DNA from: Sphingobacterium paucimobilis HER1398
GTDB taxonomy: Bacteria > Bacteroidota > Bacteroidia > Sphingobacteriales > Sphingobacteriaceae
Assembly (NCBI RefSeq): GCF_000416985.1
Contig: NZ_ATDL01000015.1
Coordinates: forward strand, 372,001-436,000
Direction of reading: 5' to 3'
Length of the DNA stretch: 64,000 nucleotides
Part shown: positions 590 through 63,482 of the stretch, piece after piece
How positions within the stretch are numbered: position 1 is the stretch's first letter
Layout of the letters: each line of letters opens with the position of its first letter
Notes under the pieces: model-generated
Told to the model about the DNA's origin: nothing
Databases searched by the model: none
What the model saw: the letters and a program-made list of their open reading frames with translations, nothing else
Position numbers and translations under genes: made by a program

Positions 590-1180
590 ATGAATTCTTA
601 TATCGAATATTCGGACAAGGAGCTTGCTATTCTGTTAAGTCAGGATGACCAAGCTGCTTTTCGACATATCTTCGAAAAATGGCATAAAAAACTTTATCAC
701 TTTTGTATCCGTTACCTACACAATGCGGAACAATCTGAAGAAGCCGTCCATGACACGCTAATCAAGCTTTGGACTACGCGTCACAAACTAGACCCCAATC
801 AATCTCTGGAAGGTCTACTTTACACCATTTGTAAGAGACTGTGTCTCAACCGTATTCGAGAAGCTTCTCGATTCAGCGCTGCAGCGGAGGAACTCTGGAT
901 AAATTACCTGGACCAAAGTAACAGTACGGAAGAATTTCTAAATCTTGTAGAACTGCAAAAATTTACGGATCAAGCTGTCCAAAAATTGACCAAACAACAG
1001 CAACTCGTTTTTAAAATGAGTAGATATGAGGGATTAAGTCAACAAGAAATTGCCGAAAAACTTAACATATCCAAAGAAACCGTAAAAAAACACAGTGCCG
1101 AAGCCCTTAAATCGCTCCGACTTCAATTCGACAGTTACTTTCAGCTCGCGGTAATTTTTATGCTATTCAACAAATTTTAG
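590..1180 (+). CDS. ECF RNA polymerase sigma factor (FecI-like), locus 1
   Basis: A 196-aa sigma-70 family protein of the ECF type that would direct RNA polymerase to the promoter of its own SusC/SusD locus. Region 2 spans about residues 19-80 (DQAAFRHIFEKW, then HDTLIKLWTTRH). Region 4 spans about 130-180 and holds the helix-turn-helix LSQQEIAEKLNISKETVKKH. The hydrophobic C-terminal tail (QLAVIFMLF) is common in Bacteroidetes FecI proteins. It is the first gene of locus 1 and is followed after 82 nt by its presumed anti-sigma factor. By analogy with E. coli FecI, activity should depend on a signal passed from SusC through FecR. Confidence 0.95.
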   Translation: MNSYIEYSDKELAILLSQDDQAAFRHIFEKWHKKLYHFCIRYLHNAEQSEEAVHDTLIKLWTTRHKLDPNQSLEGLLYTICKRLCLNRIREASRFSAAAEELWINYLDQSNSTEEFLNLVELQKFTDQAVQKLTKQQQLVFKMSRYEGLSQQEIAEKLNISKETVKKHSAEALKSLRLQFDSYFQLAVIFMLFNKF

Positions 1181-1262
1181 TTTTTTCTTCATACCAACTA
1201 CTCCCTTGTCTGCTTTCCGGTGTATTATCAATTAGTAGCACCATATTGAAGCCATCTAAGAC

Positions 1263-2423
1263 ATGAATGAGGAAAACTATATCATCCAGCAACTACTGGA
1301 AAAGTATGCTAACGGAAAAATTAGTAAAGCGGAATATGATAAACTTTTGTCGTATCTGAACGAATATGATACGTTGGACGATGTGGAATTGTTTATGGAT
1401 AAAGATTGGAAAAGTCTTGATAACTATCCTCTCTCCCACTCCAAGAGCGCGGATATTTTCCAAGGTATCGTTAAGGATCCAGTATATGCCCAATCTATCC
1501 CCCGCCGTAGAAATAAGATTTTGTCCATCAAATTATGGAAATGGGGTGCGGCAGCTGCTGCGATAATCCTGGTTATTTGGGGGGTACAGCTGTATAATCA
1601 CAATGGATCAAGTTTAAAACCGGAACATGAATCGCTCCAAAAACACGAAATAGTAGCAGGTGGAAATAAAGCAACAATAACATTAGCGAATGGCGAGCAA
1701 ATACTATTGAGCGAAAATCAAAGCGGTATCGTGATCGATGATGAACAGTTGACCTATAATGATGGTACTTCGCTTGGTCTACCTGCGGGATCTTCGACCA
1801 CCCTGACACAAACTATTGCAACTCCGAAGGGAGGAACCTACCAGATCACCCTATCCGATGGGACTAAGGTCTGGCTAAATGCTGCCACAAGCCTAACCTA
1901 TTCTACGCATATGGGCGCATCAAAAACACGTCTTGTTAAACTGGACGGAGAAGCCTACTTTGAGGTAGCAAAGGATCCAAGAAAACCTTTTGTCGTGGAG
2001 AGTAAAAATCAAACCATAGAGGTACTGGGGACCCACTTTAACGTAAACAGCTATAGTGAGGAAACAGTGAGCCGTACTACGCTACTAGAAGGGGCTGTAA
2101 AAGTTAACAATACCCTTTTAAAACCGGACCAACAGGCTATGCTCCAAGGCAACAACATCCACATTCTGAATGTGGATGCAGAAAGAACAATCGCCTGGAA
2201 AAATGGCAAGTTTATTTTCAAAAGTGAAAGCCTGGAAAGCATTATGTTAAAACTATCTAGATGGTACGATGTAGAAGTTGTCTATAATGGCGACTTCAGT
2301 GACAAGGTTTTTACCGGTTCTATGCGCCGTAAGGATGATATCTCTAAAATTCTAGAAAAAATATCCTTTACGAAGGCCGCCAAATTTAAAATTGAAGGAA
2401 GGAGGATTATCGTCATGCCATAA
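1263..2423 (+). CDS. FecR family anti-sigma factor, locus 1
   Basis: A 386-aa inner-membrane sigma regulator. Residues 1-90 are the cytoplasmic sigma-binding part and 91-110 are a single membrane helix (WGAAAAAIILVIWGVQL). The periplasmic FecR domain lies around 185-265 (LDGEAYFEVAKDPRKPF, VLGTHFNVNSY), and a DUF4974 domain is at about 315-386. DUF4974 resembles the STN fold and is the expected contact for the SusC N-terminal domain. The gene sits between sigma factor and SusC on the same strand. The order matches the surface-signalling modules known from Fec/Sus-type regulation. Confidence 0.95.
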   Translation: MNEENYIIQQLLEKYANGKISKAEYDKLLSYLNEYDTLDDVELFMDKDWKSLDNYPLSHSKSADIFQGIVKDPVYAQSIPRRRNKILSIKLWKWGAAAAAIILVIWGVQLYNHNGSSLKPEHESLQKHEIVAGGNKATITLANGEQILLSENQSGIVIDDEQLTYNDGTSLGLPAGSSTTLTQTIATPKGGTYQITLSDGTKVWLNAATSLTYSTHMGASKTRLVKLDGEAYFEVAKDPRKPFVVESKNQTIEVLGTHFNVNSYSEETVSRTTLLEGAVKVNNTLLKPDQQAMLQGNNIHILNVDAERTIAWKNGKFIFKSESLESIMLKLSRWYDVEVVYNGDFSDKVFTGSMRRKDDISKILEKISFTKAAKFKIEGRRIIVMP

Positions 2424-2452
2424 TATATTCCATCTAAATGGCTGAAAAAAAA

Positions 2453-2476
2453 CGGGAGTACTTCGACCTACCCCCG
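2453..2476 (+). other. stem-loop between fecR and susC
   Basis: CGGGAGTA at 2453-2460 pairs with TACCCCCG at 2469-2476 (one mismatch), with an 8-nt loop between. It is preceded by eight As but lacks a following T-run. It may be a processing or mRNA-stability element that lets susC be expressed differently from fecR; the role is inferred. Confidence 0.35.
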
Positions 2477-2548
2477 CTTAACTGTTTGGCCAATCATTAC
2501 AATTCATTACGAGAACTAATACTCAACTAACCAAACAATTCAAAATTA

Positions 2549-5500
2549 ATGAAAATTAATGAAACATCTGGAGTGCACGTCCGTGTAGGAATACTCCAAA
2601 AAACACTACTGATTATGAAGTTAACCACATTCATAATGTTTTTTTCTCTGGTGCAGGTAAGTGCTGTCACTAATGCCCAGATTACCATAAAGGGGAAGAA
2701 TATATCACTCCAACAGGTATTGGATAAAATAAGTGCACAAAGTGGCTACGATTTTATTTACCTCGATAAAGATATCAATCACCTTAAACTAATTGATGTC
2801 GATTTTAAAAATGCCAGTATCACGAATGTCTTGGAGACCTGCCTTAAGAACCAACCTTTATTCTATGCCATAAATGATAAGACGGTCCTGATACGTAAAA
2901 AAGATGAGATTCCTAAAAATGCATCAGCTATTGCCGCTGTGGATATAAGGGGAATCGTAACGGATGAAAAGGGAACTCCTCTAGTAGGGGTAACCATACG
3001 TGTCAAAAATTCGAATGTCGCAGCACAGACCAGTACGACAGGAGAATTTGTACTAACTGGCATTGACGAAGGAGTCGTCTTGCAGCTTTCTTTTCTAGGG
3101 TATAAAAAGAGAGAAATAACCGTAGGTAAGGCACATACACTGTCTATAAAAATGGAACCTATTACCTCCGAACTGGAAGAAGTGTCCGTGGTCAATACCG
3201 GCTATCAAACGATATCCAAAGAAAGAGCCACGGGGTCTTTCAACACCATAAGCCAGGAACAACTGGAAAAACCCTCGACAAGCATTGCGCAACGCCTTAT
3301 CGGTACTACGGCAGGGATGCAAGCTACACTGGATGCTGATGGCAATCCTAGATTTGAAATCCGGGGACAGACGGCATTGAATATCCGCGATCCTTTTGGG
3401 ATCCGTAATCAAAATGCAGCACCTCTGGTCGTTGTGGATGGATTTCCGATACAAGGCGATTTTAGCACGATTAACCCCAATGATGTGGAGAGTGTGACCG
3501 TCCTAAAGGACGCAGCAGCAGCTTCCATATGGGGTGCTAAATCTGCGAATGGTGTAATCGTCGTGGTCACGAAAAAAGGAAAGAAAGGTATGCCATTAGC
3601 TGTGAACTTCTCCGCTTTCACCCGGGTCTCTAAAAAATTAGATCTGGATTATGTGAATCCGTTAGCCTCTTCATCCGAAACGATCGACTATGAGATGAAA
3701 TCTTTTGGTAACTGGGGAGCACTGATAAACGGTGGTATGTTCCCAAATGACGTATACAAAGCTTGGTCTCCGGGGATGATAGCCATGAGTGAACATAATT
3801 TAGGCTATATTACATTGGCGGAGCGCGATGCACTTTTATCCTCCTACAAAACACTGAGCAACAAAAAACAGATTCGTGATGAGTTACTAACAAATCCTAC
3901 AGTACAACAGTATTCTTTGGATTTATCAGGTTCGACTGAAAAAATGAGTAATCGCATCTCTCTGCTTTTTGAGGACACGAAAACTAACTTTAGACGATCC
4001 GACAATAAAAAATATACAGTCAACTATAATACCTCTGCCGATGTTTTTAAATGGCTGCAAATCAATTTTGGAGGATTGGTCAATTATAACAAGGTAAACC
4101 GGAGTGGTGTCAATTATAATGTAAATCCTTATGGATCGCCAAACCCTTTAGCAGATATAGCGAACATCGCTCCCTATGAAATGCTTCGGAATGAAGATGG
4201 TTCGTTAAATAATATCTCTAGATATTACGACCCTATTCTCGACCGCTTTGTGCCTACGGACTTATTCCCTTACAAGGACTGGTCATACAATCCCATCCAA
4301 GAAATCGAAAACAGAGAATATACAAGTGAACAACTGAATACACGTTTACAAACAGGATTGAACTTTAAAATAATCAAAGGACTTTCTTTTGACACGAAGT
4401 TTCAATATGAACTTTTTAATACAACAAATAGAAACTTTAATAATGAAAAAACATTTTATGCACGAAATAATGTCAATACCGCTACTAGTTGGGACAGAGC
4501 TACAGACCGAATCACACTAAATCTGCCCAAGGGTGGTATTTTGGATCAAAACAAAAGTAGAACTGAATCTTATGTATTCAGAAATCAACTTAATTTTGAG
4601 AGACAGCTTAACGGGGACCATGAAATCAGTTTTATTGCCGGAACTGAAATAAACCACCTCGTTTCGGAAACCAATAGTGCACCTACTTCTTATGGGTACA
4701 ATGAAGAAACCTTGAGTGTTGGTATATTTCCTAATGGGCCTGGTACCCCGACTGCACCTGTACGCGATTGGACCGGCTATAACCAATCTTTTAATTATGT
4801 AAATAATTTCTCGTATATAACGGATCGATATTTCTCCTTATTCGCGAATGCAGCATATACTTATAAATCAAAGTATACGCTATCGGGAAGCATGCGTACG
4901 GATGCTTCAAATCTGATCACAGACGACCCTTCATATCGTTATGCGCCCTTTTGGTCACTGGGAGGTAGCTGGCGTGTGAATAAAGAGGATTTTATGCAAC
5001 AGGTGGATTGGATAGATCATCTTGCTTTACGTGCCACATATGGCTATAACGGCAATGTCGATAGATCCACTTCTTTTCGCCCCTTAATCGCCATTGAATC
5101 TTCACCAAATCTGTATACCGGAGATTATAGAGCTTCTATTTCAAGTTTTGGAAACCCTACCCTACGCTGGGAGAAAACAGGAACTTGGAATATAGGTATC
5201 GATTACAGCTTATTCCAGGGTGCACTATACGGTAAAGTCGATCTTTACAACAAGTCAGGCAAAGATCTTATAGCAACCCTATCCATCCCTGCAGTGAATG
5301 GAACTATGCGTCAGAACCTAAACAATGCCGCCATGACAAACAAAGGGATCGAAGTGGAGCTTGGAACAGTACAACGGATCAATGGCAACGATATTGTGTG
5401 GAGAGGAAATGCTAACTTTTCATATAATAGAAACAAAATCACCCAATTATTCGTAGCGAATTATAATGCTGCAGCCCTTGCAGGGGGTGGATCTATTGCT

Positions 5501-6145
5501 TATGTAGAGGGTCAAGATGCAAATACCTTGTGGACATACGAATACACAGGAGTAAAAAATAATCAACCAACCATAGCTGGACCAAATGGTACATTTTACG
5601 ATTTCTCGGCGTCAACTCCTGGGGATGGAACAACATACTTGTTGAATATGGGGACTAAAGTCGCACCATATACCTTTGGGTTTACCAACTCGCTTAAAGT
5701 TTACGATTTTAATCTGTCCTTCATCGTTACCGGAAAGTTTGGACACAAGTTTAAAAGAAAGGGCTTTAATTATCCAGCAGTACTCAACGGACGTGTATTA
5801 CCAAATAAAAAAATTGGTGAGGTCGTAAACGGTGATCCTATGGATATAATACCACTTCCACTGAATCAAATCGAGCCACGATATTATTTTTGGGATCGAT
5901 TCCACCCCTACATGAATTATCTTGTTGAAGATGCTTCGCATATCCGTATGCAGGAAATCAACTTAAGTTATAACCTACCCATAAACTTAAGTTCAAAAAT
6001 TAACATGAGGCGTGTCCAAGTATTCGCACAGGGGAATGATCTATTTACCATTGTGGCTAATAACGCGGGCGAGGACCCTGAATATCCTTTAGGCACATTG
6101 AAACCGCAACCTCGTATTTCTTTTGGTATCAAGTGTGAACTCTAA
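2549..6145 (+). CDS. SusC/RagA family TonB-dependent outer membrane transporter with STN domain, locus 1
   Basis: A 1198-aa outer-membrane barrel that imports a substrate delivered by SusD, powered by TonB. Domains in order: N-terminal export signal with hydrophobic core near residues 22-44; STN (secretin/TonB short N-terminus) at about 45-115; a carboxypeptidase-regulatory-like beta-sandwich at about 131-205; plug at about 215-350 with the typical VLKDAAAASIWG; then the beta-barrel to the aromatic C-terminus. The STN domain identifies it as a signal transducer to FecR. Its VVNTGYQTISKERATGSF segment closely resembles that of the locus 5 SusC, so the two are probably paralogues. SusD follows 12 nt downstream. 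Confidence 0.96.
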   Translation: MKINETSGVHVRVGILQKTLLIMKLTTFIMFFSLVQVSAVTNAQITIKGKNISLQQVLDKISAQSGYDFIYLDKDINHLKLIDVDFKNASITNVLETCLKNQPLFYAINDKTVLIRKKDEIPKNASAIAAVDIRGIVTDEKGTPLVGVTIRVKNSNVAAQTSTTGEFVLTGIDEGVVLQLSFLGYKKREITVGKAHTLSIKMEPITSELEEVSVVNTGYQTISKERATGSFNTISQEQLEKPSTSIAQRLIGTTAGMQATLDADGNPRFEIRGQTALNIRDPFGIRNQNAAPLVVVDGFPIQGDFSTINPNDVESVTVLKDAAAASIWGAKSANGVIVVVTKKGKKGMPLAVNFSAFTRVSKKLDLDYVNPLASSSETIDYEMKSFGNWGALINGGMFPNDVYKAWSPGMIAMSEHNLGYITLAERDALLSSYKTLSNKKQIRDELLTNPTVQQYSLDLSGSTEKMSNRISLLFEDTKTNFRRSDNKKYTVNYNTSADVFKWLQINFGGLVNYNKVNRSGVNYNVNPYGSPNPLADIANIAPYEMLRNEDGSLNNISRYYDPILDRFVPTDLFPYKDWSYNPIQEIENREYTSEQLNTRLQTGLNFKIIKGLSFDTKFQYELFNTTNRNFNNEKTFYARNNVNTATSWDRATDRITLNLPKGGILDQNKSRTESYVFRNQLNFERQLNGDHEISFIAGTEINHLVSETNSAPTSYGYNEETLSVGIFPNGPGTPTAPVRDWTGYNQSFNYVNNFSYITDRYFSLFANAAYTYKSKYTLSGSMRTDASNLITDDPSYRYAPFWSLGGSWRVNKEDFMQQVDWIDHLALRATYGYNGNVDRSTSFRPLIAIESSPNLYTGDYRASISSFGNPTLRWEKTGTWNIGIDYSLFQGALYGKVDLYNKSGKDLIATLSIPAVNGTMRQNLNNAAMTNKGIEVELGTVQRINGNDIVWRGNANFSYNRNKITQLFVANYNAAALAGGGSIAYVEGQDANTLWTYEYTGVKNNQPTIAGPNGTFYDFSASTPGDGTTYLLNMGTKVAPYTFGFTNSLKVYDFNLSFIVTGKFGHKFKRKGFNYPAVLNGRVLPNKKIGEVVNGDPMDIIPLPLNQIEPRYYFWDRFHPYMNYLVEDASHIRMQEINLSYNLPINLSSKINMRRVQVFAQGNDLFTIVANNAGEDPEYPLGTLKPQPRISFGIKCEL

Positions 6146-6157
6146 AAAAATAATATC

Positions 6158-7696
6158 ATGAAAAAAAAACATATACATCGCTATAGCATATTGATTTTAG
6201 TCGTCGTATCATTTATGCTGCCATCATGTGACCGCTTCTTAGAAGAGCCACCTTCTAAGACTTCCGCACTTGTGGTAAAAACCACCGCGCAGCTGAATGC
6301 ATTGCTGGATAATCACTCTACTTTTTACCGAGAGGAAAATCGCGCCCAGACCTTTGGTACGGACGACTGGGGACTGACTATCGACCTCTATAATGGTGGC
6401 CCCGCAATTCTCTCAAATATTGCTAGCATACAATTTGCAACCTGGGATACCCAATTTCTCCTTAACGATCAACGCGATAACCTGTGGACGGAGGAATATA
6501 AAAAAATATTCACCGCAAATATGGTGCTCAACAATCTGGGCAATGTCAGTGGAACCGAACAGGATAAGGCGATTATTAAAGCCGATGCTCATTTCGCCCG
6601 TGCCTATAGCTATTGGATATTGGCCAACACCTATTGCCTACCCTACACGGAAGCAAATAAAAATGAATTAGGTCTTCCCATAAAGACCAGTACCAGTTTC
6701 GAAGAGCCCATAGAAAGACAATCCTTGGAAAAAGTGTATCAGCTCATCGAATCTGACTTATTGGAAGCGTTGAAGACGCCTGTTTCTTTAACCCAATCCG
6801 GGAGAGCTAGACACTGGCGGGCAAGTAAAGAAGGCGTGAATGCTTTCGCCGCTCGGTATTATCTGCACAAAAACGAATATGAAAAAACCATTGCGCATGC
6901 GAATGCGGTATTGCAGGACTACAGTACCCTGGTAGACTACAATACAGAAATGCGCTATGGCATAGACGGAACCGTAGGTATTAATGCAGGGACGCCGCAA
7001 GCGGAAACAGTAACCCTGAAATACCCTTACACGCACGACAATCAAAGCGACCAAACCGACATAATCGGATGGAAGGAATTTCTATATTTTCGGATGTTGA
7101 GTGTCGGTACTTGGTGGTATATACCAAGCCAAGAGCTGTTGGGGCTTTATGACAAAACAAATGACTTACGTTATCAATACCACATGGTGGAGAACTACTC
7201 TTATGATCGAGGGATGGTCAAACCCGCTTACAGTTATCCGGGCTATGTGTTTTTCTTTAAAGAATGGATTCCTTCAGGCCCAACTGTAGCCGAGGTGTTA
7301 CTCATGAAAGCCGAATCCCAGGCGCGTACCGCTGATTATATGGGAGCAATCAATACGTTGAATACCTTGAGAGCCAAACGTATGAAGCCTGGAACTTGGG
7401 TCAATCTGACAGCGACCTCTAAAGATGATGCTATAAAAAAGATACTGGAAGAAAGAAGAAGAGAAATGCCTTTTGTACAACGCTGGTTCGACATCCGGAG
7501 GTATAATAACAATGAGGATCCTAATGATGATGTTGTTTTAACACGAGATTTCTATCCCTACAGTGGTACAAATGTACTCTTTAACGAATCTGTCAAAACG
7601 TATTCCTTACCCAAAAATTCGAGGCGGTATGCGAGTCCAATACCTGTAACAGAGATTATATCGAGTAATGGTGCTATCGTACAGAACACGTATTAA
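6158..7696 (+). CDS. RagB/SusD family substrate-binding lipoprotein, locus 1
   Basis: A 512-aa surface lipoprotein that forms the lid on SusC and captures substrate. The lipobox LPSC gives Cys24. The N-terminal SusD-like part and the C-terminal SusD/RagB part (KILEERRREMPFVQRWFDIRRY) are both complete. The TPR-like helices typical of the family are seen around residues 130-160 (ADAHFARAYSYWIL). The gene lies 12 nt after SusC and 18 nt before the TlpA gene, so the three should be co-transcribed. The substrate cannot be read from the sequence. Confidence 0.95.
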   Translation: MKKKHIHRYSILILVVVSFMLPSCDRFLEEPPSKTSALVVKTTAQLNALLDNHSTFYREENRAQTFGTDDWGLTIDLYNGGPAILSNIASIQFATWDTQFLLNDQRDNLWTEEYKKIFTANMVLNNLGNVSGTEQDKAIIKADAHFARAYSYWILANTYCLPYTEANKNELGLPIKTSTSFEEPIERQSLEKVYQLIESDLLEALKTPVSLTQSGRARHWRASKEGVNAFAARYYLHKNEYEKTIAHANAVLQDYSTLVDYNTEMRYGIDGTVGINAGTPQAETVTLKYPYTHDNQSDQTDIIGWKEFLYFRMLSVGTWWYIPSQELLGLYDKTNDLRYQYHMVENYSYDRGMVKPAYSYPGYVFFFKEWIPSGPTVAEVLLMKAESQARTADYMGAINTLNTLRAKRMKPGTWVNLTATSKDDAIKKILEERRREMPFVQRWFDIRRYNNNEDPNDDVVLTRDFYPYSGTNVLFNESVKTYSLPKNSRRYASPIPVTEIISSNGAIVQNTY

Positions 7697-7714
7697 CATA
7701 CATCTAAACTTCAA

Positions 7715-13531: not shown

Positions 13532-13544
13532 ACGAGAACCTATA

Positions 13545-16259: not shown

Positions 16260-16294
16260 TGATGTATATCTGATGAATTACTATCTTCTTTTTA

Positions 16295-35031: not shown

Positions 35032-35042
35032 AAAAATTAGGA

Positions 35043-50973: not shown

Positions 50974-51052
50974 TGTAGTGGTTAGTTATATATAGGTCAC
51001 ATGTGGATGCACTATACCCTAGTATTTTTTTAAAAAAAAATAAAACCGCTGA

Positions 51053-51607
51053 TTAAAACAAAATAATCTTAAGGTATTTTAGGCCTTTTCGAATCGCTTT
51101 GAGTGCATTGGTAATATGCCATTCCACCGCCTTTTTGGATATAGACAGTTCTTCCGAGATTTCCCTATTGGTCATCTGTTCATCCCTACTGAGACGGAAG
51201 ACCAGTTTACATTTGGTGGGTAGCTCTTCTACTAGACCATCGACATACTCTTTTAAAAACTTGGCTTCGATTTTATCGTCTGCTTTTACAAATTCATTGA
51301 TATAGACCGCCTCTTCTATTTCTTTGCGACGTTTGGCGCTCTGTAAAAAACGAAAAGTAGAGAACTTAACGGCCGTGGCTAGATAATTGGGAAGATTATC
51401 TATTTGAAGCTGATCTTTACGTCTCCAAAGAGATATAAAGACTTCTTGTACGACCTCTTCAGCATGATCTTTATCTTTTAAAAACTTATACGATATAGCT
51501 AACAGATGCTCCCAATATTTATCGTACAAAGCATCCAACGCCTCTGCTTCACCACGCTTCAGCGCCTGTACCAATTGGGTATCTATATGGAGAGTATGTT
51601 TGGCCAT
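51053..51607 (-). CDS. ECF RNA polymerase sigma factor (FecI-like), locus 4
   Basis: A 184-aa ECF sigma factor starting at ATG 51607 (MAKHTLHIDTQLVQAL); the frame is open to a TTG at 51640, which is a less likely start. Region 2 is about residues 16-80 (EALDALYDKYWEHLLAIS, EEVVQEVFISLWRRK). Region 4 is about 118-172 (LPTKCKLVFRLSRDEQMTNR, then EISEELSISKKAVEWHITNA). It opens locus 4 and is followed by fecR after about 80 bp. Confidence 0.94.
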   Translation of the reverse strand: MAKHTLHIDTQLVQALKRGEAEALDALYDKYWEHLLAISYKFLKDKDHAEEVVQEVFISLWRRKDQLQIDNLPNYLATAVKFSTFRFLQSAKRRKEIEEAVYINEFVKADDKIEAKFLKEYVDGLVEELPTKCKLVFRLSRDEQMTNREISEELSISKKAVEWHITNALKAIRKGLKYLKIILF

Positions 51608-52980: not shown

Positions 52981-53003
52981 ATTCTTTGTCTTTTATATTA
53001 TAT

Positions 53004-54611: not shown

Positions 54612-54674
54612 CTATCTGTTATAATTTATAATCTCAACAATTCTTATTAGTACCATTTTCAAAATGGCTGTAAA

Positions 54675-56678
54675 CTATTCACTCTTCAGCTTTTCGATAA
54701 CCAGCGAAAGCTCATCCATTAGCTTGCTCGGACTACCGGAATATCCTCCCGAAGAATAACGGATAACGCCATTTTTAACTACGATCTTACGTGGAATAGA
54801 CGAGTCCTTGAATATTGGTGTAACCAAAGATTTGAATAGCTTATCTTGCTGCCCATTTACTTCATTTTCTGCATCGTGCAATAACGTAAATCGGTATCCC
54901 TCGCCTCGCACAAAATTAACGGACTTGGTACGGTAATCGCCTGTTTGCATCGTACCTACCATATAGATCGCCACCTGAGAATCGTTGGCGTATTTGTCTA
55001 CGAGCAATTGCATCCCTGGGAATGCCATGATACACGGACGACACCAGGTAGCCCAAAAATCCATGACCACAATCTTATCTTTGATGTTATCCTGATCCAC
55101 AAAGCTTCCATCGGCATTCTCCATAGAAAAATCTGGAATGGGATAGTTAACATTAAGATGCTCATTAACATATGCTTCTAACTCAGCTCGCTGTTCAACA
55201 GACTGTAACCCGGCCAGATATAAATCATAGCCTTCTAAACTTCCGGAATGGCTTTTCTGATACAGCGACTTGACCACATCAAACATACGCGGTGTCACGG
55301 CATTAGCTTTGATGCTCATCTCCAGTAAAGGTAGAATCTCATTCTGCGCACCAAGTTTTTCGAGTACATGCAAGTTGATATCGTTCAATTCGGCATTGCC
55401 ATACTTCCCTTTGTCCGACAACTCGAAGAAATATTTGCGCGCTTCTTCATAACGTCCCAAATCATTCAATAGGGAAATATGCGTAAACAAGCGATCATCC
55501 AATTGATTGTTCCTATTAGAATCGGCTGCTGACTCGCTCATAAAATCACTTCTATAGGATCCGTCTCCCTTTTTGGAGATAAGCCCCTGAATAAGAGGCT
55601 CCGAAATATAGTAAAGCGAGTCCTTTCCTACCGTATTGAACATATAAGCCCGCATGACATTCCAGCGCAACAACTCATTGGAAGTGCGGAAATCGATGTC
55701 CTTGAACAGCGCCTGAAATTTGTCGAACTGTTTGTTATCGAAGTAGGCTGACCCGAGACCTCTGTACACAGCGTAATAGATAAAACCTTTGCTATCTGGA
55801 TTTTCATACCATTCGGAGATAGGATACTTTTTTAAAAACTCTTCATAAGAAGGAATGACGTCCTGTAATGGACCTGCTGTACGAATACTGCTATAAGCAA
55901 CAAAACGTGCAGTAGAACTCTTTGGGAACTGTTTGGTAATACGCTTGCCTACCTGCTCTGCTAACCTATCCTGCTTAATCTGATGTTGTAAAAACAGCTG
56001 CATATCGCCCAGATCGTCAGCAGATATGGACCTGTTGGACAACAATTGATCCACGACCTTCTCTGCTACAGGTGTCAATTCCTGATCGGTCAAAAGCAGA
56101 CGCTGAGCGCCCAAGTACAATTTATATTTTGATGAAATAGTCTTTCCTGACAGCTTTTCTTCTTCCTTAACGATACTTGACAAATAAGATTTATCTAAAG
56201 TGAGCTTTTCATCGTAGTAGTTGATGATCGCACCTTTGGCTAACGTAGGCACAATAAACGAAGCCTCTGCAAGATAGCTTCCCTTCTGCGCTTTTCTTTT
56301 GTGATCGCTGATCCGTAGACCGTAACCATTATTCTTGTTATTATCTACAATGTCCGGACTGTAAAGATCCCCTTGAAAGAACTTGACTCCGACAAAAAGT
56401 GTGGAGTCCGAAACGGGATACAGGTATTCCCACTGTTTATTACCCACGGATTTCATGGAAAACTGTTCTACTTTCCATATATCCTGATGAAACCGATAAA
56501 CAGCGACGGACACTTCGTCGCTAAACTCCAAATCTCCTCCTTTGGCATCATAAAGTATACGTATGGGGTCCCCAACCTTCGCAGGCTGAACCGGAAAAAC
56601 ATTGCTATTGTAAGGCTGTTCTTGCGCTTGCAAGGCAGTCCCAAAAAGTAAGAATACGGCTAAAACTATTTTCTTCAT
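54675..56678 (-). CDS. large TlpA-like thioredoxin (667 aa) with N-terminal beta domain and helical repeats, locus 5
   Basis: A 667-aa exported protein. A signal peptide (residues 1-18) precedes a beta-rich domain (about 25-155, PAKVGDPIRILYDAKGG), an alpha-helical TPR-like section (about 160-505), and a C-terminal TlpA domain (about 512-665). The active site is WCRPC (Cys546, Cys549) in DFWATWCRPCIMAFPGM. It is far longer than a usual TlpA (about 200-500 aa). It lies between SusD (22 bp upstream) and the S41 protease (63 bp downstream). The helical part may bind the substrate or the protease. Confidence 0.92.
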   Translation of the reverse strand: MKKIVLAVFLLFGTALQAQEQPYNSNVFPVQPAKVGDPIRILYDAKGGDLEFSDEVSVAVYRFHQDIWKVEQFSMKSVGNKQWEYLYPVSDSTLFVGVKFFQGDLYSPDIVDNNKNNGYGLRISDHKRKAQKGSYLAEASFIVPTLAKGAIINYYDEKLTLDKSYLSSIVKEEEKLSGKTISSKYKLYLGAQRLLLTDQELTPVAEKVVDQLLSNRSISADDLGDMQLFLQHQIKQDRLAEQVGKRITKQFPKSSTARFVAYSSIRTAGPLQDVIPSYEEFLKKYPISEWYENPDSKGFIYYAVYRGLGSAYFDNKQFDKFQALFKDIDFRTSNELLRWNVMRAYMFNTVGKDSLYYISEPLIQGLISKKGDGSYRSDFMSESAADSNRNNQLDDRLFTHISLLNDLGRYEEARKYFFELSDKGKYGNAELNDINLHVLEKLGAQNEILPLLEMSIKANAVTPRMFDVVKSLYQKSHSGSLEGYDLYLAGLQSVEQRAELEAYVNEHLNVNYPIPDFSMENADGSFVDQDNIKDKIVVMDFWATWCRPCIMAFPGMQLLVDKYANDSQVAIYMVGTMQTGDYRTKSVNFVRGEGYRFTLLHDAENEVNGQQDKLFKSLVTPIFKDSSIPRKIVVKNGVIRYSSGGYSGSPSKLMDELSLVIEKLKSE

Positions 56679-56700
56679 TGTATGATATATTTAGGCTTTA

Positions 56701-58074
56701 TTATCTTGGGCTCTGCCCTATTTCGGGATTCAATCCGAGATAATAACTGGCAACAGGATAAATAAACCTATTGCTATTTATCTCTAGCGTGAATGTCTCC
56801 CCTTTGAATGTTCTTGTGTAAGCTCTTGCCAATTTAGGGTCTAAATTCAACCTCCTTTGATCAAACCAGCGTTTGCCTGTGGCAAATAGTTCTCTACGGC
56901 GCTCTTCAATAACTTTTATAAGCGCTTCGTCAGCATCTCCTGCGATAAGCGGTTCAAAGTCTCCTGCATGGAACCTGGACTTCCTTAACAGATTGACCAT
57001 CTCCATAGATTGATCAAATTGTCCATTTCTAGCTAACACCTCCGCTTTTATCAACATAATCTCTGGAAGAGAAGATCCCACCTCGACCGTATTGGGTCTT
57101 TCGCCAGTGATCTCATTCTTTCGAGAAAGCAGAGCTCCAGCAGGCATCAAGCTATTTTGAGATACTTTAGTATATGTCGACAAACGAAGGTCATTGGTAT
57201 TGAAAAGGCCCAACAGTTCAGGATTGAGCTGTTCATTGTATTGTTGGACAGTCCGTTTAGACAGAAATATTTCTTTGCTTTCTATCCTTTTAGGGTATAC
57301 TTGATTTTCTTTACCTACATAATCAGATAAGTCAAAAAGTATACGATTCCCTTTCATTGCTTCATCGGCATGGACACCGGCCTGATCAAAGCTACGCATA
57401 TACAAATGTACGGTTGCCAATACGGCATGAACGGCTGCCTTATCCGGATGTCTATTATTTTCTGCCCGTTCGGGCAGGTCAGCGATTGATTCATTGAGAT
57501 CGGTCAAAATCTGATTGTAGATTACCTCCAAGGTTGCTCTCTGCAAACTGGAAAACAACTCCGGTTTCAACAAAAATGGTACTCCAATGGTAGACGATGC
57601 TGTTTCAGGATTATAGATCCCGCCATACTGATTGACCAGAAGAAAATAGCTATAAGCTCGCTGTACTTTTGCTTCTGCCAAAATTTGTCTCTTTTGGCGG
57701 TCTCCTCCTTTCTGGCTTTGCATGACCGTTGCTATAATTTCATTGGCTGTGTTAATCTGCTCATACAATTTATTCCAGTTCGCATCTTGCAGATCATCCG
57801 GAAAGTATTCCTGAGCCCAAGTATAGGGCCAATAAACAGACTCTGTAATATTGTTTTGATAGGCTCCTTCGGAAATAACCAAATCGTCACTCGATAATAC
57901 TGGCAGACTATAAGCCGGTCCGAAAATGCTTTCATTATTGAGTAGATATTGAAAATCATCCGTATATTTTAACTCACGTCTATTGTACTGGTCTACCTCT
58001 ACATAATCTCTACATGAACTGAAACTACCAAGAAGCAAAAGAGGGAAAACCACTGTTATATAATTTATTTTCAT
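56701..58074 (-). CDS. RagB/SusD family substrate-binding lipoprotein, locus 5
   Basis: A 457-aa lipoprotein. The frame extends to 58113, overlapping susC by 14 bp, but the Met at 58074 starts a typical signal (MKINYITVVFPLLLLGSFSSC, Cys21), so I choose it. SusD features include EAKVQRAYSYFLLVNQYGG and EERRRELFATGKRWFDQRR, and the end is LGLNPEIGQSPR. It partners the locus 5 SusC. It resembles the SusD of locus 1 in its N-terminal part, in line with the similarity of the two SusC proteins. Confidence 0.94.
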   Translation of the reverse strand: MKINYITVVFPLLLLGSFSSCRDYVEVDQYNRRELKYTDDFQYLLNNESIFGPAYSLPVLSSDDLVISEGAYQNNITESVYWPYTWAQEYFPDDLQDANWNKLYEQINTANEIIATVMQSQKGGDRQKRQILAEAKVQRAYSYFLLVNQYGGIYNPETASSTIGVPFLLKPELFSSLQRATLEVIYNQILTDLNESIADLPERAENNRHPDKAAVHAVLATVHLYMRSFDQAGVHADEAMKGNRILFDLSDYVGKENQVYPKRIESKEIFLSKRTVQQYNEQLNPELLGLFNTNDLRLSTYTKVSQNSLMPAGALLSRKNEITGERPNTVEVGSSLPEIMLIKAEVLARNGQFDQSMEMVNLLRKSRFHAGDFEPLIAGDADEALIKVIEERRRELFATGKRWFDQRRLNLDPKLARAYTRTFKGETFTLEINSNRFIYPVASYYLGLNPEIGQSPR

Positions 58075-58099
58075 TTTCTTTCGTATTATATGTGAAGAA

Positions 58100-61000
58100 C
58101 TAAAAAGAGGCATTCAGACTAAAGAAATAATTCTTTGTCGGCGGAAGACTATTATAAGTACGTGTGCGATAATACATTGGATCTATACCTTGGTCATTAG
58201 CTCGCCAAATAATACCCAGGTTGCGCACTGTAGCATTAACACTCAGACTCTTTATGGGGAGATTTTTCAACAGCTCGTTTGGGAAAATGTATTTCAGCGA
58301 AATCTGTTGTAAACGGATATGACTTCCATTGATAACCATGCGATCGCTCTCCCGAAATCTATTGAAACTATTCTGATTAATATTCGCGATACCTGGGACA
58401 ATCGTAGTCGCTTCATCGCCACTGGCTTGCCATCTATCCAATAAATCGGTGTGCGTGTCCAAGAATCCGCTGTAACCTTGCCAAGTTGGGTAATTGACAA
58501 TAGTTTCTTTTTTGACCACATGTCCCATGTTATAGCTCAACCTTACATCAAACTGGAAAGATTTATACCTCAGAGTATTCATCAAACCACCGAAATAAGG
58601 GGCAGACATGCGCCCTGCATACACTAGATCTTCTATCTTAAATGGCAAGCGGCCTAAGTTTTCTCCTGTTTCAGCATTCGTGTTGGTACTGCTCACTATT
58701 ACTCCATCGTTCCTGCCAATCAATGTCTGTCCCTTCTCATCCAACCCCTCGGAACGATAGGTGTATAGATAATCTAAAGGCATACCTGTCCTGGGACTAC
58801 GCCCTATAACTCGGTTAATGTCGGTATAGTCAAACCTGGAATCAGTAACCTTGTTTGTATTATAGGCGAAATTAAATGTACTCTGCCAAGAAAAATCTTT
58901 CTTGCGAACCAACTGTCCGGATATCCCCAAGTCTATACCACTTCCCTCCATCTCGCCTCCGTTGAAGGTCAAATTTGACCAACCGATCGTAGGATTCACA
59001 GGGAAGCTATATAAGATGTCTTTGGTATGTTTTCTGTAGTAATCAAAAGTAACGTTCAACCGGCTACTCAGGACACTAAAATCAAGCCCGTAGTTCTGTG
59101 TATATACTTTCTCCCATCCTACTCTAGGATTACCAGGAGACGCAATTTTGGCAGTAATCTCTCCTGTCTCACTGTCACGGGGCTGAATATCCATTATTGT
59201 TACATTGGATGAACCCGTAGGAATCGTACCACCAACACCATATGTAAAGCGAAGGCTTAAGGCATTTAACCAGTTTTGATGCTGCATAAAGTGCTCTGAT
59301 TTTATATTCCATTTGACTCCAGAAGACCAAAGTGGCTTAGCACGCACCGAGCGATCGATACCGACTAATGTGTGGTCATCAAAACGGGCACTTCCGGAGA
59401 TAACATAACGCCCCTTGAATAGTGTCAAAGCACCATTGGTATAATAAGAAAGTTTACGTACGTTAGGTCGGTCAACAGAACCATCTGAATAGCCTAAAGT
59501 CATTGTGTAATCGTAAATCGTATTATAGGGCGTGGTGGGGTTGAATGCGGAAGAGGAATAGGTATCTATATTGAACCCATAGCGCGTCTGTCCATAGCCA
59601 AACCCAGTCTGTGAACCTATCTCTCCACCAATAATCATATTAAGGTCGATCCACTCATTCAATGACTTATCAATATTACCCTGTAGACGAAGATTGTAGG
59701 AACTTGTACGATGGTCTCTAGTAACCAATCTACCTCCTTGCGGAAGTGAGCGTGTAAATATCCCTGTATTAAAATCTACAGCCGTGGCAGTATTCAAAAA
59801 ACTGCGCATAGTATAACTTTCTAATTCATCTAAGTTGTTGCTGGCTTCAAAAGACCGCTGTAGCATTCCTGACAAATTCAGTTTGAACCAAGAGGTCAGC
59901 TTAGCATCCAAAGCAGCGTTGAAGCGAAGTCTATTGTCCTCGTTGGTATAATTAGAATATTGTAATTCTTCTATCGGATTATACCGCCAATCATACAGCC
60001 CGAGCGCCAACAATTCATCTGCGGTCTTGTCTGTAAAAAGAACAGAACGTTTGATCAGTTCGCCTTGATCATCCAATAATCTTTCATAAGGGCGATAACC
60101 AAATTCTCCTGATCCGATTGTATTGGCGGCAGCTTGATTGCTTTTGCTTTTAGAATACACGTAGTTAATACCGGTAGTAAGATTTAGACGCTGATCAAAA
60201 AAATTGGTCGTAAAATTGGAATTGATAAAATACCCCTGTCCTTTATTACTTTTGAACACTGGCGTGTCATCCGAATAATTCATCGATATCAAATAGGTGG
60301 ATCTACTGTTTCCTCCCGATAGGGACAAATTATATTGCTGACTTACCGCATGCTGAAACAGGTTATCCTGTATCTGATTTATATTATTTATGGTTCCCAA
60401 TCGGTTGAGCTGCTGTTCTAACATAGCGTTATCAATCACACCGTTTTTTTGTTTGAACAACCATTGCATGGCCTCACTGACGGGCTTGTTTTGATTGAAT
60501 TTGCTCCACTCACTAGGTTGCCAAGCACTCGGATCAGGCACACCGCCTAAATCGAAAAGCTCGCGTTCCAGATCAACGTAATCTTTACTGGACATACGGC
60601 TCAGTTTGCTCAGGTCAGCTGGCGCAGATGTGCTCAGACTTGAGCTGAATGATATGCTTGGTGGTTGATTTTTACCTTTTTTTGTCTCGATTACAATGAC
60701 TCCGTTGGCTGCTTGGCTACCCCAAATAGAAGCTGCCGCCGCATCTTTCAAGACAGTTATACTTTCAATATCTTCAGGGTTGAACCTGTTCAGAATTGAA
60801 TTGTTGGCATAAGTTGTATTAGTCTCGACCAAATCTTGATCCATGGCCGGAAATCCATCTATCACGATCAGGGGCTTTTTAGAATTCCCTAACGGATCCG
60901 AATCGGTGCCAAAACTATTGGCTCCTCGAATCTGAATAGTATTATTCCGTAAATCGATCTGCATGCCGGGTACCATACCTTCGATACGTTCCATAATATT

Positions 61001-61672
61001 TATCGACGGGACTTCTTTTAATTCTTTGGCGGTAATCTGACTAAATGAGCCTGTCGCTCTTTCTTTTGATATCTTCTGATAACCTGTAGAGACCACTTCA
61101 ACTTCTTCGAGTTGATTTACCGCGTCTCCCATAGAAACATTAATATGCTTATTATCTCCAATGAGGCGACGCTGTGGCTCCATCCCTATATAGGTGAATA
61201 CCAAAGCATCTACCGGCTTACGCAATCTTAAGGTATAACGGCCGTCGCTACTGGTGGTGACTCCGGTACGGATGGCGTACCCTTCAGGAAGAACGGTAGC
61301 TCCTACCAAAGGCTGGCCCTTGCTGTCTTTGACCTCACCTGTTATTGTTCGCCAATAGTCATCTTGTTGAACTTGAGAATTAGATTTATTATCCTTAACT
61401 ATCGTGTAATAATTATCCTGAACGTATAAGAACAAAAGACCGCTGGGGTATAGAAGGGATTTCAATACAGACTCTATAGGCGCCTTTTTGTCCTTAGGCA
61501 CGGTCGATTTCGGCACCTGTACACCTCTCAGCAACCCCTCTTCATAGGCAAACTGGGTTCCGTAAAGGCGGGTGACTTCATTCAATGCCTGTACGATACT
61601 TGCTTTTTGCTGAGTATATCCCCCTACATGATAGAGTAAGAAGACTAAAAGCGTAAATAATCTTGGTTTCAT
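58100..61672 (-). CDS. SusC/RagA family TonB-dependent transporter with STN domain, locus 5
   Basis: A 1190-aa outer-membrane transporter. It has a signal peptide (residues 1-20), an STN domain (about 22-95, VQALNEVTRLYGTQFAYEEG), a CarboxypepD_reg-like domain (about 108-185, ITGEVKDSKGQPLVGATV) and a plug (about 195-345, with VVSTGYQKISKERATGSF and VLKDAAAASIWGSQAANG). The barrel ends YFFSLNASF. The plug start is nearly the same as in the locus 1 SusC, which marks the two as a distinct subgroup within this window. It is 16 bp after fecR. Confidence 0.96.
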   Translation of the reverse strand: MKPRLFTLLVFLLYHVGGYTQQKASIVQALNEVTRLYGTQFAYEEGLLRGVQVPKSTVPKDKKAPIESVLKSLLYPSGLLFLYVQDNYYTIVKDNKSNSQVQQDDYWRTITGEVKDSKGQPLVGATVLPEGYAIRTGVTTSSDGRYTLRLRKPVDALVFTYIGMEPQRRLIGDNKHINVSMGDAVNQLEEVEVVSTGYQKISKERATGSFSQITAKELKEVPSINIMERIEGMVPGMQIDLRNNTIQIRGANSFGTDSDPLGNSKKPLIVIDGFPAMDQDLVETNTTYANNSILNRFNPEDIESITVLKDAAAASIWGSQAANGVIVIETKKGKNQPPSISFSSSLSTSAPADLSKLSRMSSKDYVDLERELFDLGGVPDPSAWQPSEWSKFNQNKPVSEAMQWLFKQKNGVIDNAMLEQQLNRLGTINNINQIQDNLFQHAVSQQYNLSLSGGNSRSTYLISMNYSDDTPVFKSNKGQGYFINSNFTTNFFDQRLNLTTGINYVYSKSKSNQAAANTIGSGEFGYRPYERLLDDQGELIKRSVLFTDKTADELLALGLYDWRYNPIEELQYSNYTNEDNRLRFNAALDAKLTSWFKLNLSGMLQRSFEASNNLDELESYTMRSFLNTATAVDFNTGIFTRSLPQGGRLVTRDHRTSSYNLRLQGNIDKSLNEWIDLNMIIGGEIGSQTGFGYGQTRYGFNIDTYSSSAFNPTTPYNTIYDYTMTLGYSDGSVDRPNVRKLSYYTNGALTLFKGRYVISGSARFDDHTLVGIDRSVRAKPLWSSGVKWNIKSEHFMQHQNWLNALSLRFTYGVGGTIPTGSSNVTIMDIQPRDSETGEITAKIASPGNPRVGWEKVYTQNYGLDFSVLSSRLNVTFDYYRKHTKDILYSFPVNPTIGWSNLTFNGGEMEGSGIDLGISGQLVRKKDFSWQSTFNFAYNTNKVTDSRFDYTDINRVIGRSPRTGMPLDYLYTYRSEGLDEKGQTLIGRNDGVIVSSTNTNAETGENLGRLPFKIEDLVYAGRMSAPYFGGLMNTLRYKSFQFDVRLSYNMGHVVKKETIVNYPTWQGYSGFLDTHTDLLDRWQASGDEATTIVPGIANINQNSFNRFRESDRMVINGSHIRLQQISLKYIFPNELLKNLPIKSLSVNATVRNLGIIWRANDQGIDPMYYRTRTYNSLPPTKNYFFSLNASF

Positions 61673-61688
61673 AAAGTTAATTTGTTAG

Positions 61689-62720
61689 TTATTTAGAGTT
61701 AATCGTTATTTTCTTGCCTTCGACCTTCATGTCCAACTGCATGGCGTGTCGGATTACAAAAAGAATATCATCAGCTTGTGTAAGTGGAGCTACTCCCTGA
61801 AGTCTTTTATTTAATATGCTGGAATCTTTCAGTTCAACACTGTAGCCGTAATTATCCTCAAGCACTTCGATAATATCAGATAGGTTCTGATGCTCAACAA
61901 CCATCTCACCACGTGTCCAAGAAAGCGCCTCTTGTATATTCCTGTTGTTCAACACCTGCTCAGTATCGGCTACTTTATCATAAATAAAAGTTTCCCCTGG
62001 TTTCAATATGTGCTTTAATCCTATTTTATCCATAACCTGAAGGCTACCTTCAAATAGGGAGACTTCAATATGTCCGCGACGGTCCTTAACATTAAATTTT
62101 GTACCTAAAACAGTTAATGAAATATCTCCTACATGGACGATAAAATAGTCCTCCTGCTGCAATCGATTCTTGATCGCCGTATGCTTTACTTCGAACAAAG
62201 CTTCTCCATCCAACCACACCTCTCTAGGCTTATCTGTTTTCCAATCTCTAACATATTTCAAACGCGAATTACTATTGAGCTGTACCACAGAAGCGTCAGG
62301 TAAAAGCAATTCTCGCTGCTCTCCATATCCTGTATTGTTCATTTTTGTGCCCAGCTGCCCAACCTCATATATAGTGAAGCCTAATAGTAAAACTGCAGCA
62401 ACTTGGGCTATCCATCTCCGGATCTTACGAATCCGATATAACCGGTCTTGTGCCTGTACATACAACGGAAGCGATTCTTGTATACGGCTCCAACGTGTTT
62501 CATTGTCTATCTTACTTTGATGCAGAGGCTGATCTCGCAGCAGCTCAATCCACTGTATCGCCTTCTCAATCTCTTGTTCTAAATAGGGATAAGTGTTGAC
62601 CAAAGATTTCCAAAATGACAGATCATCCCCCATTCCTGAAAGATAATAGGACGTGAAGGCTTCATCTTCGAAAAAGTCTACTGCTTTAAAGTCTTTGTAT
62701 AACAAGAAATCGTGTTTCAT
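61689..62720 (-). CDS. FecR family anti-sigma factor, locus 5
   Basis: A 343-aa regulator. It has a cytoplasmic part (about residues 1-105), one membrane helix (about 107-125, WIAQVAAVLLLGFTIYEV), a FecR domain (about 135-230, LDGEALFEVKHTAIKNR, VLGTKFNVKDR) and a C-terminal STN-like domain (about 265-343, LSDIIEVLEDNYGYSVEL). The SusC start is only 16 bp downstream, so the two are co-expressed. It is the tightest fecR-susC spacing in the window. Confidence 0.95.
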   Translation of the reverse strand: MKHDFLLYKDFKAVDFFEDEAFTSYYLSGMGDDLSFWKSLVNTYPYLEQEIEKAIQWIELLRDQPLHQSKIDNETRWSRIQESLPLYVQAQDRLYRIRKIRRWIAQVAAVLLLGFTIYEVGQLGTKMNNTGYGEQRELLLPDASVVQLNSNSRLKYVRDWKTDKPREVWLDGEALFEVKHTAIKNRLQQEDYFIVHVGDISLTVLGTKFNVKDRRGHIEVSLFEGSLQVMDKIGLKHILKPGETFIYDKVADTEQVLNNRNIQEALSWTRGEMVVEHQNLSDIIEVLEDNYGYSVELKDSSILNKRLQGVAPLTQADDILFVIRHAMQLDMKVEGKKITINSK

Positions 62721-62894
62721 AATCTATTTATATCTATATACAGTGAGAATTGGAATTTTACCCCAGTGTTGTTAAATTATTTTTATCTTTTTGTAAAAAA
62801 ACACGGAATATAAGCAGACAGGTTCAAGAAAATTCTTCTTCAGAAGTAGAATTTGCACCGAGGGCAAAAAATAAAAAACTAAAATCGGATCCGA

Positions 62895-63482
62895 TTAAGA
62901 AGATTTTGCTTCGGCCAAAAGTGTAAAAATTGCCAATAGATTGAATGCCCCGACATGTTTTCTCAAACTATCCATTGCACGATAAAACAGTTTGTATAAG
63001 TCTTTAACAGATAACCCCATGATATCCGCGATCTCCTCGTAAGATAATTCTTCAAAAAACCGTAAGTGGATTACTTCACGTTGACGTGCTGTCATTTTCA
63101 GTAAAGCTTCTTCCAACTGGGCCTTGATCTCCTCCAACCGCTCTTTGCGCATAACTTGTGTATCATGAGGCAATTCAATATCAAATGGTAAACTTTCTAC
63201 TGGAATATTTCTTTTTCTATTGGACTGCTCAATGTGCGCTGTAAGTGTGCGCCTAAAGGCTTTGTAAAGATAGTTTTTGACGGAAGGTGTATCGTTGATG
63301 CTATCCCGGTTGTACCAAATTTTCATAAAAAACTCTTGGATGCTATCTTCAATGATGCTCTCTTCTTGTGTAAATTTATACCCATAATTGAACAATAGCG
63401 GACTGTAGCGCTCAAACAAAAGTTTGAAAGCAGCCTCGTCACCCAATCGAAATAGGTGCCACCAGTCTGACTCATTTTTCAT
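62895..63482 (-). CDS. ECF RNA polymerase sigma factor (FecI-like), locus 5
   Basis: A 195-aa ECF sigma factor. Region 2 is about residues 12-75 (EAAFKLLFERYSPLLFNYG, EDSIQEFFMKIWYNRD). Region 4 is about 130-185 (MTARQREVIHLRFFEELSYEEIA, then DIMGLSVKDLYKLFYRAM). It opens locus 5. A -7-like TACATTTG on the minus strand at 63566-63559 could be its promoter, leaving a leader of about 70 nt. Confidence 0.95.
   Translation of the reverse strand: MKNESDWWHLFRLGDEAAFKLLFERYSPLLFNYGYKFTQEESIIEDSIQEFFMKIWYNRDSINDTPSVKNYLYKAFRRTLTAHIEQSNRKRNIPVESLPFDIELPHDTQVMRKERLEEIKAQLEEALLKMTARQREVIHLRFFEELSYEEIADIMGLSVKDLYKLFYRAMDSLRKHVGAFNLLAIFTLLAEAKSS

Follow-up and report, generated by a model that had tools for sequence, protein, structure and literature searches.

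The stretch of DNA analysed here (the window) comprises 64,000 nucleotides of Sphingobacterium paucimobilis HER1398 (contig NZ_ATDL01000015.1, positions 372,001 to 436,000; G000:C14:372001-436000 in our numbering), in a 5.1 Mb genome of 22 contigs. It holds five operons with the order ECF (extracytoplasmic function) sigma factor, FecR, SusC, SusD, accessory proteins at some loci, and TlpA-type thioredoxin-fold proteins (590-8854, 14763-25224, 29471-40589, 43512-51607 and 51847-63482; Table 1). The third reaches 27786 if the asparagine synthase gene (AsnB) is counted in. In all five, intergenic gaps are at most 172 bp from FecR onward and mostly below 40 bp from SusC onward. A sequence-only reading of the window had proposed these five loci, with an STN-bearing SusC at each, seven exported CxxC thioredoxins in total and no carbohydrate enzyme, and as described below each of these elements is found, at the coordinates and in the order it gave. 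Translations correct two of its gene starts, placing that of SusD3 near 35034 and that of SusD4 near 46416, while the start of ECF4 stays at 51607. Its gene list is extended by the DUF4843 and PKD_2 lipoproteins of locus 2, by a family-less lipoprotein, a Fib_succ_major protein and the ordinary AsnB at locus 3, and by the S41 peptidase of locus 5.

Table 1. Genes of the five loci, in window coordinates, with the matches on which each assignment is based.
Locus	Feature	Coordinates	Strand	Evidence
1	ECF sigma	590..1180	+	Pfam Sigma70_r2/r4
1	FecR anti-sigma	1263..2423	+	PF04773, PF16344
1	STN-SusC	2549..6145	+	PF07660, PF07715; TIGR04056
1	SusD lipoprotein	6158..7696	+	PF14322, PF07980
1	DUF4369-TlpA, site WCVPC	7715..8854	+	PF14289, PF00578
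2	TlpA, site WCGPC, long N-terminal part	14763..16259	-	PF00578
2	PKD_2 lipoprotein	16295..17743	-	PF16407
2	DUF4843 lipoprotein	17753..18457	-	PF16132
2	SusD	18462..19892	-	PF14322
2	SusC with STN	19910..23212	-	TIGR04056; STN model E 8.6e-14
2	FecR	23301..24530	-	PF16344, PF04773
2	ECF sigma	24625..25224	-	PF04542
3 (membership uncertain)	Asparagine synthase B (AsnB)	27786..29441	-	NF006949 790 bits vs cut-off 499; 29 bp behind last TlpA
3	Second DUF4369-TlpA, site WCGPC	29471..30658	-	PF13905, PF14289
3	First TlpA, site WCGPC	30661..31869	-	PF13905
3	Fib_succ_major (FISUMP) protein	31875..32594	-	PF09603; TIGR02145
3	Lipoprotein (by eye)	32591..33475	-	No Pfam or NCBIfam match
3	SusD, start set from lipoprotein signal	33487..35034	-	PF14322
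3	SusC with STN	35043..38666	-	TIGR04056; STN model E 4.6e-16
3	FecR	38718..39875	-	PF04773, PF16344
3	ECF sigma	40008..40589	-	BLAST to ECF1 E 2e-12
4	TlpA, site WCQPC	43512..44981	-	PF00578
4	SusD	45022..46416	-	PF14322, PF07980
4	SusC with STN	46428..49805	-	TIGR04056 731 bits; STN model E 3.9e-12
4	FecR	49978..50973	-	PF16344, PF04773
4	ECF sigma	51053..51607	-	BLAST to ECF1 E 8e-17
5	DUF4369-TlpA, site WCAPC	51847..52980	-	PF00578, PF14289
5	S41 peptidase with PDZ	53004..54611	-	PF03572; TIGR00225 above cut-off
5	Large TlpA, site WCRPC; beta part, helical part, ResA-like C-terminal domain	54675..56678	-	PF00578; model and fold comparison
5	SusD	56701..58113	-	PF14322
5	SusC with divergent STN	58100..61672	-	TIGR04056; hhalign 97%
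5	FecR	61689..62720	-	PF04773, PF16344
5	ECF sigma	62895..63482	-	BLAST to ECF1 E 2e-13

The family assignments are consistent across the five loci. Every SusC passes the TIGR04056 cut-off and contains Plug and CarbopepD_reg_2, each adjoining SusD passes that of PF14322, and all five FecR proteins pass their Pfam cut-offs; ECF1 and ECF2 do so as well, and for ECF3-5 the assignment comes from BLAST matches to ECF1 (E 8e-17 to 2e-12). The Pfam STN model scores above its cut-off in SusC1 and below it in SusC4, and is unlisted for SusC2, SusC3 and SusC5. An STN model that we built from 14 FecR-linked SusC proteins outside the window matches SusC1-4 (E 8e-27 to 4e-12) and gives no match in SusC5. 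When the N-termini of SusC5 and nine of its relatives are compared as a profile with the 14 STN N-termini, hhalign returns a probability of 97%, so that the receptor domain of ECF/FecR/STN signalling is found directly in SusC1-4 and by profile comparison only in SusC5. With the same STN model, just 1 of 36 SusC proteins of this genome without FecR has the domain. By eye, lipoprotein signals are present on the SusD, DUF4843 and PKD_2 proteins.

All seven TlpA/ResA-type proteins score above Pfam cut-offs and have one WCxPC site each. Their signal sequences, read by eye, are not of the lipoprotein type, and therefore the seven are predicted to be soluble in the periplasm. Three of the seven were scanned against the named NCBI equivalog and subfamily models (ResA, TlpA, DsbE), and all three fall below the NCBIfam cut-offs. 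The large TlpA of locus 5 has 667 residues, and its C-terminal domain is predicted to have a ResA-like fold, since the modelled domain aligns with ResA at a Z score of 18.4 and a root-mean-square deviation of 1.8 over 136 residues; the comparison covered this domain, with hardly any test of the remaining model. The nearest named relatives of the large TlpA are in Sphingobacterium faecale (96% identical), S. tabacisoli (87%) and S. yanglingense (70%). A separate TlpA subtype has an N-terminal site in which another residue replaces the W that normally precedes the first Cys (SCGSC, TCGTC, YCVNC); it is located behind SusCD pairs without ECF/FecR at C2:6023, C2:107561, C14:357033 and C21:208800 of the same genome (G000).

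The linkage of TlpA to SusCD extends well beyond the window. PF14322 identifies 109 SusD genes in the genome, or 101 once eight on a duplicated stretch are removed; that stretch of C7 is repeated in C20, shifted by a constant 74329 bases, and is probably an assembly artefact. We surveyed 1.56 Mb around the SusD matches with a simple open reading frame caller, taking same-strand genes with gaps of at most 300 bp as an operon and adding window locus 3 by hand, as the caller had missed its SusD. A thioredoxin-fold gene is present downstream at 35 of the 101 loci. Each of the eight SusD loci from C14:357033 to C14:440985 carries TlpA, and the window is therefore part of a longer run. Across the genome, 42 of 73 reading frames with AhpC-TSA or Thioredoxin_8 matches are located in SusD operons, where 4.3-5.2 would be expected if the genome is assumed to have 4000-4800 genes. 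This is an enrichment of about ninefold (hypergeometric P <1e-29, a value that over-counts independent events owing to paralogues and duplications). The sequence-only reading had further tied TlpA to FecR/STN, and here it is not borne out: TlpA occurs at 26 of 65 SusD loci linked to FecR and at 9 of the 36 without that link (odds ratio 2.0, p=0.19). Two of the SusCD-TlpA loci without ECF/FecR, C11:28370 and C17:215602, share a 1.1 kb leader upstream of SusC at 90% DNA identity. This leader is open in frame with SusC, and some other TlpA loci without ECF share shorter stretches at 65-79%; it may be a recombination or regulatory element.

The TlpA loci of this genome also differ from the other SusD loci in their accessory genes. 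They contain on average 0.94 further genes, against 3.1 at the 66 loci without TlpA (p=2e-5). We scanned 32 of 33 such genes from TlpA loci and 200 of 205 from the others. The 32, for which the table of 25 families is complete, include seven DUF4843 and six PKD_2 proteins and one peptidase each of S41, aspartyl-protease-like and M43 type. The DUF4843/PKD_2 pair is found at 7 of 35 TlpA loci and 2 of 66 others (p=0.008, model recount), and DUF4843 alone at seven and three, respectively (p=0.03). The nine-row PKD_2 profile was used for the family recount without the doubtful L070 row, and one of ten initial DUF4843 members proved to be a different protein and was excluded. Both families were considered as homologues of the lipoproteins in solved SusCD complexes and rejected, there being no single-sequence match for either and no profile match for PKD_2. 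The family-less lipoprotein of locus 3 has a weak relative, accompanied by the same type of Fib_succ_major protein, at C21:351134, a SusCD locus without TlpA.

A polysaccharide utilisation locus would have at least one carbohydrate-active enzyme (CAZyme) per operon, and Pfam finds no CAZyme family among the scanned genes of the five window loci. Genome-wide, none of the 32 scanned accessory proteins is a CAZyme, against at least 20 CAZyme-like proteins among the 200 from loci without TlpA, judged by family name from the 25 best of 73, 54 and 64 families per pooled table. With p=0.085, the absence of CAZymes at TlpA loci is a trend. A strict exclusion of CAZymes, as the pairing of TlpA with their absence in the sequence-only reading would have it, is not supported, and one operon in another genus (L209, below), which carries three glycosidases, runs directly counter to it.

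Operons in other genomes give further indications of function. The large-TlpA profile matches 19 of 395 genomes of the class, the window genome included. Outside the window genome it has 22 matching places, of which 20 were fetched, and five of these 20 are in SusCD operons (L197, L198, L209, L213 and L214). The order ECF-FecR-SusC-SusD-TlpA-S41-TlpA is present in S. faecale, S. tabacisoli, S. yanglingense, Filimonas zeae, Chitinophaga ginsengisegetis and genome G393, and a large TlpA followed by an alpha/beta hydrolase is seen in three Pedobacter records, a Sphingobacteriales metagenome-assembled genome and [Flexibacter] sp. ATCC 35208. In a Prevotella metagenome-assembled genome (L103), one protein of 1013 residues is matched by the TlpA model as well as by the hydrolase model, which elsewhere correspond to separate adjacent genes; no SusCD was seen on its 12-kb contig. 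By a hand count of AhpC-TSA genes within 5 kb behind SusD, TlpA accompanies 8 of 49 SusD genes in G393 and 2 of 40 in G026.

We read 14 SusCD-TlpA operons in other genera (L096-L102, L104, L105, L197, L198, L209, L214 and L226). Twelve of them contain an S41 peptidase, an alpha/beta hydrolase or an M16 peptidase, and four (L102, L105, L198 and L226) contain DsbD. In L102 (a Cellulophaga sp. BC115SP record) and L105 (Flectobacillus longus), which represent one lineage and for which families were scanned in L102, SusD is followed by an aspartyl-protease-like protein, TlpA, an alpha/beta hydrolase and DsbD. L198 reads ECF-FecR-SusC-SusD-TlpA-S33/S9-like hydrolase-DsbD-M16, with DsbD_TM above its Pfam cut-off. 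L226 reads FecR-SusC-SusD-TlpA-TlpA-M16-type-DsbD-SufS-like with a divergent ECF gene; its DsbD, M16 and SufS matches are below the NCBIfam cut-offs, and its DsbD shares 64% identity with the L198 protein. These last two operons, both with DsbD and M16, are the two counted in G026. In G030 and G385, DsbD is directly behind an M16-type gene with SusD 10 and 4.3 kb upstream on the same strand, the intervening genes being unread. The presence of DsbD in a genome is useless as a marker, since with no more than two candidates scored in each genome it is found in 371 of the 395 of the class, and therefore only its position is informative. The occurrence of DsbD and TlpA in one operon in three separate lineages of operons argues for reduction rather than oxidation, and the fact that 12 of the 14 operons encode a peptidase or a peptidase-like hydrolase argues that the substrate derives from protein.

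These observations suggest that the loci may take up peptide or glycopeptide material and reduce it, a reading to which we would give not quite an even chance. In this scheme, the substrate would bind SusCD at the cell surface and be pulled in with TonB energy, and STN, as its family and those of its partners would predict, would report binding via FecR to the ECF sigma factor and so switch on the operon. Once in the periplasm, the substrate would meet one or two reductases of the TlpA type, which would open its disulfides or mixed disulfides; the inner-membrane protein DsbD would recharge these reductases, and reduction would let peptidases finish the substrate. The substrate would most likely be protein-derived, namely disulfide-bearing peptides, small proteins or glycopeptides. 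The order of the genes, their families and active-site motifs, the enrichment and the conservation of such operons across genera, in some cases together with DsbD and peptidases, are observations; how the operons are induced, which way electrons flow, where the proteins reside and what they import are predictions. The sequence-only reading had proposed import systems for substrates that need thiol processing, and this is supported in part, as uptake of something besides plain polysaccharide that involves thiol processing, by loci with few accessory genes and no CAZyme among those scanned and by some relatives with DsbD and peptidases.

Several observations weigh against reductive import. The 14 operons are a non-random sample, 13 of them having been found through large-TlpA searches, and the case for a reductive role comes mainly from the relatives of locus 5. 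Ten of the 14 are without DsbD, as are four operons of other Sphingobacterium genomes (L092-L094 and L213) and the SusD regions of the window genome, which has its DsbD gene elsewhere. Alpha/beta hydrolases need not be peptidases, and peptidases are present at SusCD loci without TlpA too and are therefore no marker of TlpA loci. Fifteen of the 20 fetched large-TlpA places are not SusCD-linked (one is on a 5.6-kb contig). L209 has the order ECF-FecR-SusC-SusD-TlpA-GH127-GH43-rhamnosidase. The 38 DUF4369 matches outside the window genome correspond to 36 regions, and only one of these (L226) is a SusCD operon. Finally, two or more cysteines occur in 6 of 33 SusC proteins at TlpA loci and 2 of 66 elsewhere (p=0.016), a count that omits two SusC with 13-14 Cys whose open frames are over-extended by start-site artefacts.

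The last two points bear on an explanation that we consider unlikely, yet the best of the alternatives, in which TlpA would repair or protect Cys-containing envelope proteins during growth on the substrate and would not act on the substrate itself. DUF4369 is found in 16 of 61 genomes of the phylum, with 23 matches in the window genome and one to four in the other positives, and several of the outside proteins, of about 250 residues, show no thioredoxin part. That 35 of 36 outside regions are not SusCD operons implies that the basic role of the family is not import, which fits envelope maintenance, as does the evolution of TlpA independently of SusC (below). The slight cysteine excess would likewise suit TlpA acting on SusC itself. 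However, cysteines are few in the SusC, SusD and accessory proteins of TlpA loci and many SusC have none, so that disulfides of SusC or SusD are unlikely targets of TlpA. Envelope maintenance also leaves the ninefold enrichment in SusD operons unexplained, together with the joining of DsbD and peptidases within one operon.

Quite unlikely, in our judgement, is that the ligand is a glycan-peptide conjugate whose protein part is loosened by TlpA, which would make the TlpA loci variants of polysaccharide utilisation loci. L209 would fit such a role, as GH127 acts on the hydroxyproline-linked arabinose of plant wall glycoproteins, but it is the sole example, and in the window genome none of the 32 scanned accessory proteins of the TlpA loci is a CAZyme.

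The evolutionary history of the loci bears on whether TlpA is functionally joined to SusCD. The SusC proteins of the window are mutually 23-30% identical by BLAST, with some alignments partial. Mantel tests on 27 loci whose TlpA is of the C-terminal type show correlated distances for SusC and SusD (r=0.69, p=0.0005) but neither for SusC and TlpA (r=-0.02, p=0.59) nor for SusD and TlpA (r=-0.15). Tandem duplication of a single SusCD-TlpA ancestor is rejected on the SusC identities and the Mantel test, and the paralogous diversification that the sequence-only reading had suggested is weakened by the same results. Therefore, TlpA has been combined repeatedly with different SusCD pairs or swapped between loci, and a shared need for TlpA is likelier than inheritance. 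The same independence, together with the several TlpA types involved, could be taken to mean that TlpA genes are mobile and settle behind SusD as passengers without joint function. This is improbable, given that the same gene order is kept across families and that the enrichment is so strong, even allowing for duplications.

Within locus 5, the surface pair and the remainder of the operon differ in their divergence. Compared with S. tabacisoli, protein identities along the operon are 93% for ECF, 93% for FecR, 66% for SusC, 53% for SusD, 87% for the large TlpA, 98.5% for S41 and 96% for the second TlpA. At the DNA level, identity is 0.51-0.66 at about 60600-56701, which covers the SusC barrel and SusD, and 0.71-1.00 on both sides. 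A smaller dip, to 0.74-0.84 at 60300-59401 inside SusC, is seen against S. faecale. The surface pair SusC/SusD has been either exchanged or diversified, against a background of conserved regulators and periplasmic proteins. A change of ligand and escape from a phage or toxin that binds the pair would both fit this divergence valley.

Import of metal or haem, with TlpA freeing thiol-bound metal or handling haem, is very improbable: the nearest solved folds are indeed ResA and TlpA, which serve cytochrome c and copper-site maturation, but no haem, siderophore or metal-binding family is among those found in the TlpA loci, which have peptidases instead, and no gene of the families found points to the thiol-bound metal complexes that the sequence-only reading had named as a possible substrate.

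Other features of the window lie outside the five operon cores. AsnB (27786-29441) is followed by a regulator that is Lrp/AsnC-like by eye (area 27234-29441), and a 9-pair terminator-like stem is located behind AsnB at 27750-27729. Between loci 1 and 2, positions 12684-14617 hold genes for a MarR-type regulator, an Ohr peroxiredoxin, DUF1304 and a nitroreductase. In S. tabacisoli these genes sit between the orthologues of locus 5 and locus 2, and loci 3 and 4 are therefore absent at that place there. A frame of 202 residues at 25857-26465 has no Pfam match and is GNAT acetyltransferase-like by eye. Promoter scans give counts near expectation, with four matches against three expected for a Bacteroidota-type pattern and 37 against 37.8 for a sigma-70-type pattern.

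For many SusCD systems the substrate is not known, and by default they are classed with the polysaccharide loci. The parts described here belong to known families, and their combination with DsbD and peptidases is a variant of SusCD import loci; no SusCD loci with TlpA are described in the titles and abstracts that we found in the open literature. A broader and more doubtful proposal, which we regard as possible, is that of a dedicated class of reductive-import SusCD loci. Here, a swappable SusC-SusD pair would feed a conserved TlpA, DsbD supply and peptidases, disulfide-bonded proteins or glycoproteins would be opened for food, and the reductive part would have been acquired repeatedly by different SusCD pairs. 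If true, 35 of 101 SusD loci of a Sphingobacterium would import substrates that need reduction, the class would be testable through periplasmic thiol chemistry and DsbD dependence, and orphan SusCD loci could be sorted by their accessory genes.

Among known systems, the peptide-importing SusCD pair RagAB of Porphyromonas gingivalis shares the SusC/RagA and SusD families with the window loci (RagA, 6sli_B, matches SusC2 at E 5.6e-44). To our knowledge, ragAB has no TlpA. The window loci add both TlpA and ECF/FecR/STN signalling, and for both window SusC proteins searched the best solved match is another SusC, 8aa4 for SusC2 and 8ypu for SusC1; sequence similarity by itself does not give the ligand. 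Four ragAB alleles are mentioned in the abstract of PMC11817032, a situation that can be compared with the divergence valley of locus 5. ECF/FecR/TonB transducer signalling is matched in that STN, FecR and ECF sigma are all present, with the difference that the transducer in the window is a SusC with a SusD partner. The ResA/TlpA/CcmG reductases that work with DsbD or CcdA share the CxxC thioredoxin fold, ResA being nearest, and have a parallel in the four operons that carry DsbD; unlike the known reductases, the window TlpA proteins have long N-terminal parts, are linked to import operons and, in the three tested, score below the equivalog cut-offs. Finally, the polysaccharide utilisation loci of Bacteroidota resemble the five window loci in their SusCD core and operon layout, but where those loci carry CAZymes, the window loci carry reductases in their place.

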